From Lachnospiraceae bacterium (GTDB taxonomy: Bacteria; Bacillota; Clostridia; Lachnospirales; Lachnospiraceae), in assembly GCA_017392525.1 (NCBI GenBank), contig JAFOVD010000028.1, positions 1-61,626 of the forward strand: a DNA stretch of 61,626 nucleotides. The letters run 5' to 3'. A program made the position numbers and the translations under genes. The first letter of the stretch is position 1. Each line of letters starts with the position of its first letter. Below the pieces are notes generated by a model. It saw only the letters and a list, made by a program, of their open reading frames with translations. It did no database searches and was not told the origin of the DNA. Below, piece by piece: positions 1,285 through 9,306 of this stretch.

Positions 1285-2109
1285 TTACTGAAGCAGTGAA
1301 AGTACACCCTGTGTTGACTGGTTAGCCTGAGCAAGCATTGACTGTCCTGCCTGAGCAAGAATATTATTCTTGCTATATGTAACCATCTCAGATGCCATAT
1401 CTGTATCACGTACACGTGATTCAGATGCTGATGTATTTTCAGATGTTGTATCCAGGTTGGCAATTGTGTGCTCTAATCTGTTCTGAACCGCACCAAGATT
1501 AGCTCTCTGTGTAGAAATCGTATCAATTGCTGCCTGTACCATGCTCATTGATTCTCCAGCTGATTTAAATGAGCTAAGCTTCAAAGCAGAACCATTAACA
1601 CCTAATGACAATCCAGAAGTTGTAAGCTTTGCAATACTGATTGTAATTGCCTGTCCACTTAATGCACCTACCTGAAGATTCTTTCCTGTAAATGATCCAT
1701 CTAACAGATTCATTGTATTGAACTGTGTAGATGATGCGATACGGTTAATTTCGCATGATAACTGATCAACCTCTAACTTAAGAGAATTTCTATCAACAGA
1801 TGTATTTGTATCATTTGCTGCCTGAGTTGCAAGTTCATTCATACGCTGTAACATAGCGTGAACTTCATTTAATGCACCTTCAGCTGTCTGTACTACAGAA
1901 ATACCATCAGAGGCGTTTGTAGATGCTCTATCCAATCCTCTAATCTGAGATCTCATCTTCTCGGAAATTGCCAGTCCTGCTGCATCATCTGCTGCTCGGT
2001 TAATCTTGTAACCACTGGATAATTTCTCTGTTGACTTAGACTGGGCACTTGTTGTGATTCCCAACTGTCTGTTTGTGTTCATTGCTTGCAGATTGTGCTG
2101 TACTACCAT
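1285..2109 (-). CDS. Flagellin 1
   Basis: This is a 274-residue flagellin, the building block of the flagellar filament, exported unfolded by the flagellar type III system. It consists almost only of the conserved N-terminal (about 1-140) and C-terminal (about 190-274) D0/D1 helices, with a very short centre, so the filament surface should be smooth. The D1 segment LQRMNELATQAAND matches the helix known in other flagellins to contact TLR5. The end SMLALANQ-like segment and LSLLQ finish are typical. It is a close paralogue of flagellin 2 at 3592-4416. It has a sigma-28 promoter at 2263-2289, a long leader with a CsrA-type hairpin, and a strong AGGAGG ribosome binding site. Confidence 0.97.
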   Translation of the reverse strand: MVVQHNLQAMNTNRQLGITTSAQSKSTEKLSSGYKINRAADDAAGLAISEKMRSQIRGLDRASTNASDGISVVQTAEGALNEVHAMLQRMNELATQAANDTNTSVDRNSLKLEVDQLSCEINRIASSTQFNTMNLLDGSFTGKNLQVGALSGQAITISIAKLTTSGLSLGVNGSALKLSSFKSAGESMSMVQAAIDTISTQRANLGAVQNRLEHTIANLDTTSENTSASESRVRDTDMASEMVTYSKNNILAQAGQSMLAQANQSTQGVLSLLQ

Positions 2110-2161
2110 AATTCGCTTCCTCCTTGATAAAAAAGAAAAATAAAAAATGTAAATGTATACC

Positions 2162-2177
2162 GCAACATCCGTGTCGC
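2162..2177 (-). promoter_or_regulatory. Putative CsrA-binding hairpin in flagellin 1 leader
   Basis: On the minus strand GCGACA-CGGA-UGUUGC forms a 6-bp stem (one G-U pair) that presents GGA in a four-base loop. The core ACACGGAUGU matches the CsrA consensus ACANGGANGU at every position. It lies 52 bases before the flagellin start codon. CsrA of Bacillus subtilis blocks flagellin (hag) translation through leader sites, and FliW relieves it; both proteins are encoded nearby (8531-9212). Confidence 0.65.
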
Positions 2178-2262
2178 AACTTAGAGAAGTAATCTCAGAA
2201 ACCTTCCATAGCTAATATTACATCTGAGCTTCTTACCTTTCATTTGTTTCCTTACACTCAAT

Positions 2263-2289
2263 ATATCGGTGTATAATCACAAAACTTTA
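2263..2289 (-). promoter_or_regulatory. Sigma-28 (SigD) promoter of flagellin 1
   Basis: On the minus strand TAAA (2289-2286), exactly 15 bases, then ACCGATAT (2270-2263) agree with the sigma-28 consensus TAAA-N15-GCCGATAT in seven of eight -10 bases. The transcript should start near 2256 and carry a leader of about 145 bases. The rest of the gap (2290-2375) shows no clear signal. Confidence 0.85.
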
Positions 2290-2375
2290 CCCCTAAATTC
2301 ATATTTTTTATGTTTTTTATACAACTACAACATTTTGGCAGTACATTATCTGAAATTGTCTATATTTTGTGGATT

Positions 2376-3431
2376 TTAGTAATCCAGATTTTGAATAATC
2401 ACCTGCTTTGCAATCTCCGATACATGCAATTTCTCCAGTCTTTTTATATGCGCTTCATCGATTTCCTCGCCTCTGGATTTAATAATAATAAGTTCCTTTA
2501 TAAATCTCACATTATCAATTAATTCGCTAAGTTCATGTGTATCTGTATACAGACCTTCCACCTGATACTGTTTCTCCATCTTTATGATATAGAGAATCAA
2601 TTCAATAATAGGCAATTCTCGACTGATATCCGATGCCGGGAGCCTTACATCCGGGCGGTAGTTGATAAACTCATGGAACATCTTATCCGCCTCTTCGATC
2701 TGTCCCAGTCGAATCAACTGTCCTACCGCCAATTTCAGTTCCTTCGTCTCTGCCTTTTCCGATGTATAAATCACCGGCATTTCCTGCACTTTTAAATCAT
2801 TATAAACAATAAATACTTTTAATAACGGTTCAGATAAGAAACCATACACACGTCTATGATATGCATCATAATTTGTCACATCAATTTCTCTTGATGCCCG
2901 AAATAAGACCGTAAATAACCATTCGCAATAAGCCATATAAACTTCACGCTTCATCACGCAGAGATTGCCATAATACCCTTCTTTCGTACTCATAACACGG
3001 TCAAAAGTCTCGACATATTCCGGATAACACTCCTCTATAGCCAGACGCACTGCATCCATATCTTTTACATTATGGACTTTCTTGTATGTCTCATAATGAC
3101 TATCCTCACCTACCATCTGAATAGGTGCGATTACATCATATGACTCCATCACTTTCTCTACCGTCTCTTTTTGCAGCAGATTTCCATCAAAATCAGCAAA
3201 GAATCTTCGATAATGATTGATTCCTATAATATCCGAATCAGTATCATTCTTCCAAATCCAATACAATCCGGTCAATTCACCAAATAAGGGATTTAAATCC
3301 GAGATATTATCTCCTGTATTATCTTCCAGATACCCCAGATTCTGGCTTAGTGTGCGTCCTACATGAAGTGGCACATATCCTTCTGCAACCGGCAAATCGC
3401 ATTTCTTATGAGTCATTACATAGATCTTCAT
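2376..3431 (-). CDS. DUF4422 family protein, probable glycosyltransferase
   Basis: The 351-residue protein starts with the DUF4422 hallmark: MKIYVMTHKK, then about 50 residues on an ELTGLYWIWKN motif and a GINHYRRFF motif. The family is widespread in capsule and exopolysaccharide loci and is thought to act in glycan transfer. The C-terminal ~130 residues are helical and look like a separate region. It is a single gene between two flagellin genes, behind a terminator, which suggests flagellin or surface glycan decoration. That role is inference; no donor or acceptor can be read from the sequence. Confidence 0.78.
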   Translation of the reverse strand: MKIYVMTHKKCDLPVAEGYVPLHVGRTLSQNLGYLEDNTGDNISDLNPLFGELTGLYWIWKNDTDSDIIGINHYRRFFADFDGNLLQKETVEKVMESYDVIAPIQMVGEDSHYETYKKVHNVKDMDAVRLAIEECYPEYVETFDRVMSTKEGYYGNLCVMKREVYMAYCEWLFTVLFRASREIDVTNYDAYHRRVYGFLSEPLLKVFIVYNDLKVQEMPVIYTSEKAETKELKLAVGQLIRLGQIEEADKMFHEFINYRPDVRLPASDISRELPIIELILYIIKMEKQYQVEGLYTDTHELSELIDNVRFIKELIIIKSRGEEIDEAHIKRLEKLHVSEIAKQVIIQNLDY

Positions 3432-3534
3432 TTAGAGTCTCCTATCATCAACAAGTTACTACGATAACCTATCCTCTTCTAATTGAATTATAAACTTTAA
3501 TTTCTGCCTGTTCTAGTTTTTTATATATTTCTTG

Positions 3535-3573
3535 TAAAACCAAGAAAAGGGGCCAGCTTACGCCGACCCCTTT
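3535..3573 (-). terminator. Rho-independent terminator after flagellin 2
   Basis: On the minus strand GGGGTCGGC and GCTGGCCCC pair around a GTAA loop, flanked by A and T runs, and a broken T tract (TTTTCTTGGTTTT) follows. It lies about 20 bases past the stop codon of flagellin 2. Confidence 0.85.
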
Positions 3574-3591
3574 CGGTAGTTAATTTAGAGA

Positions 3592-4416
3592 TTAACCAAG
3601 TAAGGACAGAACACCCTGTGTTGACTGGTTAGCCTGAGCAAGCATTGACTGACCTGCCTGAGCAAGAATGTTGTTCTTGCTGTAGGTAACCATTTCAGAT
3701 GCCATATCTGTATCACGGATACGAGATTCAGCACTTGAAGTATTTTCAGATGTTGTATCCAAGTTAGCAATGGTATGTTCCAGACGGTTCTGAACAGCAC
3801 CAAGTGTAGCTCTCTGTGTAGATACCTGATCGATAGCTGCCTGTACCTTAGACATTGTAGCACCTGCTGTAGAGAATGAAGATACTGCTAATCCTGATCC
3901 AGCTGCACCAAGACTAAGAGCAGAAGCCTTCATAGATCCGATAGAGATGCTGATAGACTGTCCACTTAAAGCACCAACCTGAAGGTTCTTTCCTGTGAAA
4001 GATCCATCTAACAAGTTCATTGTGTTGAACTGTGTTGTAGAAGCGATACGATCGATTTCAGATCCTAACTGGCTAATTTCAAGAGAGATAGAAGTTCTAT
4101 CTGTTGAAGTATTAGTATCGTTAGCAGCCTGTGTTGCAAGTTCGTTCATACGCTGTAAGATAGAATGAACTTCGTTTAATGCACCTTCAGCTGTCTGTAC
4201 TACAGAAATACCATCCTGAGCATTTGTAGAAGCCTTATCAAGACCTCTGATCTGAGATCTCATCTTTTCAGAAATAGCAAGACCAGCAGCGTCATCACCA
4301 GCACGGTTAATCTTGTAACCAGATGATAACTTTTCTGTTGACTTTGCCTGAGCGCTTGTTGTGATTCCTAACTGTCTGTTAGTGTTCATTGCCTGCATAT
4401 TATGCTGTACTACCAT
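3592..4416 (-). CDS. Flagellin 2
   Basis: This is a second 274-residue flagellin with the same architecture and length as flagellin 1: N-terminal D0/D1 helices, a very short centre, and C-terminal D1/D0 helices ending in LSLLG. The paralogues differ mainly between residues ~105 and ~215, with near-identical ends. TLR5-region residues LQRMNELATQAAND are kept. It is expressed from a sigma-28 promoter at 4539-4565 through a ~115-base leader that contains a GGA-loop hairpin and a strong AGGAGG site. Codon choice looks even and strongly biased, as expected of an abundant filament protein, so this may be the major flagellin; that is inference. Confidence 0.97.
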   Translation of the reverse strand: MVVQHNMQAMNTNRQLGITTSAQAKSTEKLSSGYKINRAGDDAAGLAISEKMRSQIRGLDKASTNAQDGISVVQTAEGALNEVHSILQRMNELATQAANDTNTSTDRTSISLEISQLGSEIDRIASTTQFNTMNLLDGSFTGKNLQVGALSGQSISISIGSMKASALSLGAAGSGLAVSSFSTAGATMSKVQAAIDQVSTQRATLGAVQNRLEHTIANLDTTSENTSSAESRIRDTDMASEMVTYSKNNILAQAGQSMLAQANQSTQGVLSLLG

Positions 4417-4441
4417 AATTTATTCCTCCTTGAATATGAGT

Positions 4442-4457
4442 GAGGCATCCATGCCCC
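4442..4457 (-). promoter_or_regulatory. Putative CsrA-binding hairpin in flagellin 2 leader
   Basis: On the minus strand GGGGCA-UGGA-UGCCUC folds as a 6-bp stem with GGA in a four-base loop, the same 6+4+6 design as the hairpin before flagellin 1 although the stem bases differ. It lies 25 bases before the start codon and just upstream of the CAAGGAGGA ribosome binding site, which itself contains a GGA core that could be the second contact of a CsrA dimer. Confidence 0.65.
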
Positions 4458-4538
4458 AATTATTAGATTGTGAAGTGCTTATCTGTTCTCCGGCCGTACG
4501 CTCCCTCGAACACTTGCACGATTCACCTTACACTTGTT

Positions 4539-4565
4539 ATATCGGACAGTCTGCCCGATACTTTA
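4539..4565 (-). promoter_or_regulatory. Sigma-28 promoter of flagellin 2
   Basis: TAAA (4565-4562), 15 bases, TCCGATAT (4546-4539) on the minus strand fit the sigma-28 consensus. The -10 element lies in a 21-base near-palindrome from 4540 to 4560, whose meaning is unclear. Confidence 0.87.
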
Positions 4566-8530: not shown

Positions 8531-8746
8531 TTATAATAATTTCTTTAATGCATCCAATCCTTCTACATTCATGGAATCTTCATTTTCTTTCTGAATCTGG
8601 AGATAAATCTCTTTACGATAAACGGGAACTTCCTTAGGTGCGGAAATGCCGATTTTAACCTGATCTCCACGAATCTCTAAGATTGTAATCTCTGTATCAT
8701 TGTTGATTACCAGGGCTTCACCCTTTTTTCTTGTTAATGCTAACAT
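8531..8746 (-). CDS. csrA: Carbon storage / flagellin translation regulator CsrA
   Basis: CsrA is a small dimeric RNA-binding protein that masks ribosome binding sites by gripping GGA motifs. The protein reads MLALTRKKGEALVINND..., with the usual EIRGDQVKIGISAPKEVPVYRKEIY core. I prefer the ATG at 8746 (71 residues), which aligns with known CsrA starts; an in-frame GTG at 8755 would add three residues and overlap fliW. The ATG follows the fliW stop by one base, so the two are translationally coupled. Predicted targets in this window are the two flagellin leaders and perhaps flaG. Confidence 0.96.
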   Translation of the reverse strand: MLALTRKKGEALVINNDTEITILEIRGDQVKIGISAPKEVPVYRKEIYLQIQKENEDSMNVEGLDALKKLL

Positions 8747-8747
8747 A

Positions 8748-9212
8748 TTACTCACCCGCCTCCTCTTTTGCTTTTTTCAAAATATCGTAAATAGGGAAGC
8801 GTACCTCGTAGTCATCTTCTACGATGAGCTGTCCACCTCTTAATGTATCAGTGTTAATGATAATTGGTGCCTTTAAGTTTACAGACATCTGAGTAGGATC
8901 TGTCGGAACCTTAATTGTAACCAGCACATACGTGTTTTCCTCTGTCAGCTCCCCAAGCGGCAGAAGAAGTTCGTCATTAATTGTAGGATTATAGTCCGGC
9001 TTAATTATGATTGGAAGCACAACCGGTAACGCAAACTGCGGTTCGTCAATTGACTGAAACCACATAATCGTATCATGGTCATCACCCTTTTCCTCATCGT
9101 AAATCAACGTAAATTTCTTGAGGTCCGGAAATCCAACAATACCTTTATCCAGTGTGATGATTTTCTCATCCTGGATATCAATTTCCCCAAACAATCTTGT
9201 TTTAATTTTCAT
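8748..9212 (-). CDS. fliW: Flagellar assembly factor FliW, CsrA antagonist
   Basis: FliW binds CsrA and frees flagellin mRNA for translation; when flagellin builds up in the cytoplasm it takes FliW back, giving a homeostatic loop known from B. subtilis. The sequence starts MKIKTRLFGEIDI and has the KGIVGFPDLKKFTLI segment of the family. I place the start at the ATG at 9212 (154 residues), preceded by AAGGAGAAAAGGAG; an upstream start at 9245 has no such site and no family match. The fliW-csrA order is typical of Firmicutes. Confidence 0.96.
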   Translation of the reverse strand: MKIKTRLFGEIDIQDEKIITLDKGIVGFPDLKKFTLIYDEEKGDDHDTIMWFQSIDEPQFALPVVLPIIIKPDYNPTINDELLLPLGELTEENTYVLVTIKVPTDPTQMSVNLKAPIIINTDTLRGGQLIVEDDYEVRFPIYDILKKAKEEAGE

Positions 9213-9306
9213 GCTATTCTCCTTTTCTCCTTGCCTAAAATGCATACATGAAGCATTTCATAACTCTCTAAGTCTATTCTAGTCTATTTATTTTACGATT
9301 ACTACC

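Follow-up and report, generated by a model that had tools for sequence, protein, structure and literature searches.

A candidate kissing-loop element beside putative CsrA sites in flagellin mRNA leaders of a Lachnospiraceae bacterium and other Bacillota

The 61,626-nucleotide (nt) contig JAFOVD010000028.1 of a Lachnospiraceae bacterium (assembly GCA_017392525.1), analyzed here over its whole length and called the window below, carries two flagellin genes whose leaders (leaders 1 and 2), both transcribed from the minus strand, appear to combine two kinds of RNA element. Each leader contains a GGA-loop hairpin, and both are very probably targets of the CsrA-FliW-flagellin partner switch. Nearer the promoter than the GGA hairpin, side-by-side comparison of leaders exposed a second conserved stem-loop in leader 2, absent from the initial annotation of this DNA, whose self-complementary loop would, on balance, let two flagellin mRNAs pair. 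We lean slightly toward the broader proposal that flagellin mRNAs of the Bacillota, flagellin 2 included, carry a conserved kissing-loop hairpin with a drifting palindrome that stays self-complementary, such that different flagellins of one genome could pair with their own kind only. If true, bacterial mRNAs would possess a widespread element for homodimerization, located beside CsrA sites, and mRNA dose could be coupled to repression, stability, or clustering. The palindromic loop is the more consequential of the two elements; the CsrA part extends known flagellin dose control to an uncultured member of the Lachnospiraceae.

The loop of the leader 2 stem-loop is closed directly by two pairs only, with longer helices below, and its palindrome is flanked by G on both sides (Table 1). 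Covariation was assessed in an alignment of 44 of 47 sequences, leader 2 included, aligned on the loop; two sequences with divergent loops (L073 and L195) and a near copy of L150 (L210) were left out. In this alignment 71.1% of cells were paired, compared with 47.9% in shuffles, and the stem covariation score was 0.613 versus 0.230 in shuffles, none of 500 being as high, with a maximum of 0.249 when slid. The covarying stems include many G-U pairs. The three loop-adjacent pairs are present in 42, 40, and 32 of the 44 sequences and are followed by a small internal loop and then a further helix.

Palindromic loops were counted in 169 of 229 flagellin-type leader regions (the set is described below), the other 60 having been dropped because they had no recognizable -10 or less than 30 nt between promoter and hairpin. 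Initially, without regard to base composition, 64 of the 169 regions had a hairpin loop containing a 6-nt palindrome, where shuffles gave 28.4 and never more than 37; a minimum of four G or C was imposed following this looser count, and under it 48 of 169 loops qualified, against 5.1 (maximum 14), while mirror-symmetric words, in principle equally numerous, were found 6 times against 6.35. Because the G+C requirement had been chosen after the first count, a fresh set was analyzed with the test unchanged: 54 of its 76 regions could be counted (22 dropped on the same grounds), and GC-rich palindromes occupied 20 of these loops, against 2.5 in shuffles (maximum 7 in 100 rounds). Among the leaders of 80 named loci, 24 of 84 from flagellin genes qualified, versus 13 of 372 from other genes. 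Kinship was handled by thinning 223 regions by identity. The excess persisted at 9 of 17, 11 of 42, 31 of 103, 45 of 157, and 62 of 201 regions, against 0.65, 2.4, 4.3, 5.9, and 7.1, respectively, and the strictest thinning (9 representatives) gave 2 against 0.2.

The palindromes that occupy this same place vary in sequence. CGGCCG (Bacilli and several Clostridia), UGGCCA, GGCGCC, GGGCCC, GCCGGC, CCUAGG, and more were found, and 13 kinds occur among the 62 hits at the loosest thinning, some of them surely by chance. Two loci of one genus, L314 and L320, have regions 76% identical and carry CGUACG and CGGCCG, respectively, in the same loop frame. Among 303 leaders, 50 have the frame R-CG-NN-CG-R on a stem of at least three pairs, and in 47 of them the central bases are self-complementary (UA 28, GC 18, CG 1; the other three are UC, UG, and GA); without the stem requirement, the fraction is 68 of 80. 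Since neighboring bases of a single molecule are unable to pair with one another, this co-variation of the central bases points to intermolecular pairing. In a count made without a shuffle control, the palindrome fell within an 8-10-nt loop in 91 of 223 regions, with flanking bases that were purine-purine in 60, mixed in 29, and pyrimidine-pyrimidine in 2.

A number of observations weigh against dimer formation. The criteria select only 28-41% of leaders, and leader 2 itself fails the 3- and 4-pair stem criteria and so stands outside the palindrome counts; a fold that closes part of its 9-nt loop is favored over the open form by 0.3 kcal/mol. By its loop, its alignment, and its model score, leader 2 is nevertheless assigned to the palindromic-loop group. 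In the fresh set the mirror-word control exceeded shuffles (12 of 54 against 2.2), an excess that we think stems from CGGCCGG containing the mirror word GGCCGG. The sample is also shaped by shared ancestry, which identity thinning answers only in part. Fifteen of the 18 loops that lie one mismatch from the Lachnospiraceae form keep all six self-pairs (L139, L157, and L240 do not), but 10 of these 15 alter only a flanking base, the other 5 being C-to-U changes within the palindrome, and loops with two mismatches occur at about the chance level (30 versus 26). Furthermore, some conserved loops are not palindromic, such as GCCAGC in the Butyrivibrio leaders L120, L130, and L140 and also in L369, L370, and L373.

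Tests of specificity were of limited value. The model R1 has a single match in this genome, leader 2 itself (4470-4524, E 1.7e-6), which is a training sequence; across 98 genomes, with E values up to 0.1 accepted, it matches 29 times, in 27 of them. Ten of these are flagellin leaders by coordinate among the matches listed; since all ten had served to train the model, the search does not count as an independent test. Of the ten R1 matches with E below 0.001, two (in G046 and G021) are not flagellin leaders. The exact motif GGAGCGTACGGCC occurs in 23 of 299 genomes, once each, and its backwards-read control pattern has 14 matches in 13 genomes; 15 of the 23 precede a flagellin gene (14 by script and L263 by reading), the remaining 8 corresponding to the chance level. 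In leader 1, both model R1 and the loop count gave no sign of the second element. A low-GC version was considered there and rejected, the candidate words UAGCUA and AAUAUU sitting in a large loop with no short enclosing stem. Membership in a known Rfam family was likewise rejected, as no covariance model of Rfam 15 matches in the leaders examined: at the gathering threshold the window yields only thiamine pyrophosphate (TPP) riboswitch and tRNA matches, leader 2 searched at E up to 5 yields only tpke11 (13 bits versus a cut-off of 43), and the loci of seven relatives yield two matches, neither in a leader.

What the upstream stem-loop does is best weighed against two other explanations. Six-base palindromes are typical of DNA sites, and those found here lie at fairly constant places between promoter and GGA hairpin, as might be expected of an operator for a dimeric regulator just downstream of a sigma-D promoter. 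Such an operator is quite improbable, however: the stems covary with many G-U pairs, which are meaningless in DNA, the strong bias toward purine flanks on the mRNA strand is not anticipated for a symmetric DNA site, and the palindrome itself takes many forms. Alternatively, the stem-loop could be a plain 5′ stabilizer or a protein site with an incidental palindrome, consistent with its 5′-proximal location in an mRNA that is presumably abundant and with leaders whose stems bear non-palindromic loops. This we consider unlikely, since the palindrome itself is enriched according to the mirror-word and other-gene controls, and a single-stranded protein site gives no reason for adjacent bases to be complementary.

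A kissing-loop element, which would add to CsrA control and not compete with it, is the explanation we hold to be probable. It is favored by the palindrome excess in both sets, after thinning, and relative to other genes, by the covarying stems and self-complementary central bases, by the differing palindromes of the 76%-identical L314 and L320 regions, and by the purine flanks. Set against it are the absence of the element from leader 1, the stem of leader 2 and the small energetic cost of its open loop, the modest share of qualifying leaders, the raised mirror control, the G+C limit set after the first count, the single-base variants that mostly change a flank, and the non-palindromic loops. 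Pairs of flagellin mRNAs would be expected to form when the message is abundant, and possible consequences of a dimer are protection of the 5′ end, gathering of messages close to sites of export, or joint presentation of several CsrA sites.

The features of leader 2 resemble those of known kissing loops: a GC-rich 6-nt palindrome in an apical loop (with two closing pairs only) and purine flanks; across leaders, self-complementarity is kept while the loop sequence changes. As described in the parts of the cited papers considered here and below, the dimerization initiation site of human immunodeficiency virus 1 (HIV-1) is a GC-rich six-base palindrome that needs flanking purines, the likeness to leader 2 extending to both properties, and the 3′ untranslated region of oskar mRNA dimerizes through a palindromic loop of six bases flanked by pyrimidines (PMC7357161). 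In contrast to both, the element proposed here belongs to a bacterial mRNA, sits in its 5′ leader, and forms a dimer by prediction. The same review tabulates bacterial homodimers, including guanidine-II and other riboswitches and the hatchet ribozyme; these are likewise bacterial RNA elements, some with palindromic contacts, but they use two to four palindromic nucleotides or other motifs and come mostly from crystals (PMC7357161). Natural six-nucleotide kissing-loop pairing is known from retroviral genomes and fly embryo mRNA, and the parts of the review covered include no such loop in a bacterial mRNA (PMC7357161). Judged by title and abstract, none of the matches listed from the flagellin leader, hag, kissing-loop, mRNA-dimer, and structured-RNA literature (with most subscription journals outside scope) describes a self-pairing hairpin in flagellin leaders. 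Retention of such an element across Bacillota, on a message as abundant as flagellin mRNA usually is, would open bacterial mRNA pairing to direct tests with short synthetic RNAs.

The GGA-loop hairpins are conserved as well. Leaders were gathered by protein search, pattern search, genome-contig search (at least 80 loci), and region fetches, giving 229 distinct flagellin-type leaders with a good ribosome site (5 of 234 with weak ribosome sites were left out); these take in the two leaders of the window and some flagellin-like genes, such as the flgL of the window. Hairpins above a fixed score were present in 188 of the 229, whereas 50 rounds of dinucleotide shuffles gave a mean of 7.8 and a maximum of 15. 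For 174 of these 188, the distance from the end of the loop to the start codon is 28-47 nt; leader 2 is typical at -31, while leader 1 is an outlier at -58 with a counterpart in G003 at -57. In 204 leaders where the GGA was picked by position only, stem pairs 2-6 formed in 185, 188, 181, 181, and 159, versus 137, 121, 91, 92, and 87 in shuffles (none of 500 as high), and these positions hold many pair types; the loop-adjacent pair was kept in just 108 of 204, little above chance. In the fresh set, drawn from class Clostridia and including some genomes of the same family, 63 of 76 leaders carried the hairpin (76 of 87 were kept, previously unseen ones only). The initial annotation had read the differing stem bases with retained pairing as selection on structure and had named covariation among relatives as the check; the covariation bears this out, and the hairpin is widely conserved.

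Other claims of that annotation also held. It had placed 16-base NGGA hairpins with 6-bp stems in both leaders, and both are present on the minus strand (Table 1). One G-U pair occurs in each stem, further pairing can lengthen hairpin 1 to nine pairs and hairpin 2 to seven, and the folded structure of each leader contains its GGA hairpin. Hairpin 1 agrees at every fixed base, as claimed, with the CsrA consensus ACANGGANGU from systematic evolution of ligands by exponential enrichment (SELEX); hairpin 2 departs from it at the first and last fixed bases. The distance from hairpin to start codon is 52 nt in leader 1 and 25 nt in leader 2, which matches the 27-nt difference given earlier, and the gap between the GGA of the hairpin (proposed site BS1) and that of the ribosome site (proposed site BS2) is 44 and 18 nt, respectively. 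A T-rich spacer between hairpin and ribosome site (window 2160-2126, minus strand), shared by the G003 counterpart, accounts for the unusual spacing of leader 1. The ribosome sites read AAGGAGGAA and hence each contain the predicted GGA, but this is a weak test: any good Gram-positive ribosome site contains GGA, so its presence alone is no evidence for CsrA. The proposed hag-type layout of two sites agrees with reports on the hag leader (PMC8523840, PMC7652899).

CsrA control of flagellin leaders is an arrangement of known kind. Binding sites BS1 and BS2 were described in Bacillus subtilis hag (Yakhnin 2007, as cited in PMC8523840 and PMC7652899), and the likeness lies in a flagellin mRNA with an upstream GGA site, a second site at the ribosome-binding sequence, and CsrA and FliW as regulators; by description, to which the comparison with hag is confined, the window differs in having two flagellin genes, one with a 44-nt gap. 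In Campylobacter jejuni flaA, equivalent CsrA sites were shown by mutation, gel shift, and footprint, and its SL1/SL2 arrangement likewise pairs an upstream GGA-loop hairpin with a ribosome-site GGA and FliW as antagonist, the structure being backed by compensatory changes; flaA differs in its 45-nt leader and unrelated phylum, and no palindromic upstream hairpin is described in the parts considered (PMC4894983). For Clostridioides difficile fliC, on which csrA and fliW act, sites BS1 and BS2 of the same form were predicted, and there too the upstream element is not described (PMC8523840). In the explanation favored here, a CsrA dimer would hold the GGA hairpin and reach over to the ribosome-site GGA, blocking translation, and FliW freed upon flagellin export would remove CsrA from the leader, allowing translation to resume. 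Reported CsrA bridging covers distances of 10 to 63 nt between sites, a range that includes both leader gaps (PMC7652899).

The main competing explanation is that the GGA hairpins are structural or chance hairpins that do not bind CsrA. NGGA hairpins of at least six pairs number 8 in the window (both strands), near the mean of 5.35 in 20 base-shuffled copies, so the existence of the hairpins alone proves little, and every strong ribosome site contains GGA. What exceeds chance is position and conservation: the place, the GGA loop, and the pairing are kept in most leaders, and CsrA sites have been proven directly in C. jejuni (PMC4894983), which makes this explanation very improbable. Further points count against CsrA control. 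Folding of the entire leaders is no better than in shuffles (z 0.34 for leader 1 and -0.84 for leader 2), and the idea that they fold unusually stably was dropped. The spacing of leader 1 is rare, with 14 of 188 hairpins at least 54 nt upstream, some of these by chance; the stems are longer than in most SELEX ligands (at most 4 pairs), and the loops have 4 nt where most SELEX ligands have six (PMC7652899). Moreover, 5 of 68 flagellin-bearing genomes (G002, G005, G065, G070, and G071) have no csrA above cut-off, two of them being less than 80% complete. We accept the CsrA reading because of the conservation of the hairpin, the presence of csrA and fliW, the confinement of csrA above cut-off to flagellin-bearing genomes, the fit of hairpin 1 to the SELEX consensus, published cases with the same layout, and gaps within bridging range; CsrA would thus be predicted to bind and repress at both leaders.

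The gene cluster of the flagellins also contains csrA and fliW, which lie upstream of the leaders at 4.1 to 7.1 kb from the hairpins, confirming their proximity with a small adjustment to the 4-6 kb stated initially. Read by eye, the CsrA product has the RNA-binding arginines, at positions 6 and 44 counted from an internal ATG. The NCBIfam FliW models match the window fliW below their cut-offs. In a comparison by hand of csrA and flagellin matches in 98 genomes, the 63 genomes with csrA above cut-off all have a flagellin match, and the 30 that lack such a match have no csrA above cut-off, although G006 and G039 among them have weaker csrA matches; CsrA in this order looks dedicated to flagella. 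Separately, divergent second csrA genes (50-60 bits) lie a few hundred nucleotides upstream of large flagellin genes at L068, L069, L070, L072, L075, and L076 (genomes G045, G004, G019, and G040), and the csrA-flagellin gaps there hold, by eye, palindromic loops CCUAGG or CCCGGG, with both in G045.

The two flagellins of the window differ in two predicted respects, the spacing of the putative CsrA sites and the presence of the proposed pairing loop. With its 44-nt gap in place of the usual 18 nt, leader 1 is probably repressed less tightly than leader 2. The earlier suggestion that the two flagellins respond differently to CsrA is plausible, since the spacing of leader 1 is unusual and it shows no sign of the second element. 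Some 250 leaders are now available for asking how spacing sets repression. Locus L106 (G000:C39:28772-29272) is a third flagellin of the same genome, large, with a 1020-amino acid frame; its leader, read by eye, has a sigma-D-like -10, a weak ribosome site, and no GGA hairpin, and this flagellin may escape CsrA.

Table 1. Coordinates of flagellin genes, putative leader elements, and regulators in the window (aa, amino acids).
Feature	Position	Strand	Remarks
Flagellin gene 1	1285..2109	-	274 aa; Pfam Flagellin_N and Flagellin_C
Leader 1 ribosome site with GGA (proposed BS2)	2117..2125	-	sequence
Leader 1 GGA-loop hairpin (proposed CsrA site BS1)	2162..2177	-	GCGACA-CGGA-UGUUGC
Leader 1 promoter, presumed sigma-D type	2263..2289	-	TAAA 2289-2286, 16 nt, CCGATAT 2269-2263
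Flagellin gene 2	3592..4416	-	274 aa; Pfam flagellin domains; 85% identical to flagellin 1
Leader 2 ribosome site with GGA (proposed BS2)	4423..4431	-	sequence
Leader 2 GGA-loop hairpin (proposed CsrA site BS1)	4442..4457	-	GGGGCA-UGGA-UGCCUC
Leader 2 stem-loop with self-complementary loop (proposed kissing-loop element)	4470..4526	-	44-sequence alignment, covariation
6-nt palindrome CGUACG	4495..4500	-	inside 9-nt loop 4502-4494, A-G-CGUACG-G
Leader 2 promoter, presumed sigma-D type	4539..4565	-	TAAA 4565-4562, 16 nt, CCGATAT 4545-4539
csrA	8531..8755	-	sole copy found in 78.6% complete genome assembly
fliW	8748..9245	-	Pfam FliW 118 bits, above cut-off

Both promoters in Table 1 are taken to be of sigma-D type from the consensus. 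The two flagellin genes are separated by a DUF4422 gene (3431-2376, minus strand) and followed downstream by a radical SAM gene (1172-30, minus strand); judged from position alone, these possibly have a role in flagellin modification. Among known structured RNAs, the window contains a TPP riboswitch (18235-18128, minus strand, 66 bits), and a Clostridiales-1 RNA (RF01699) occurs at L123:5750-5903 (plus strand), about 1.1 kb upstream of a flagellin gene.

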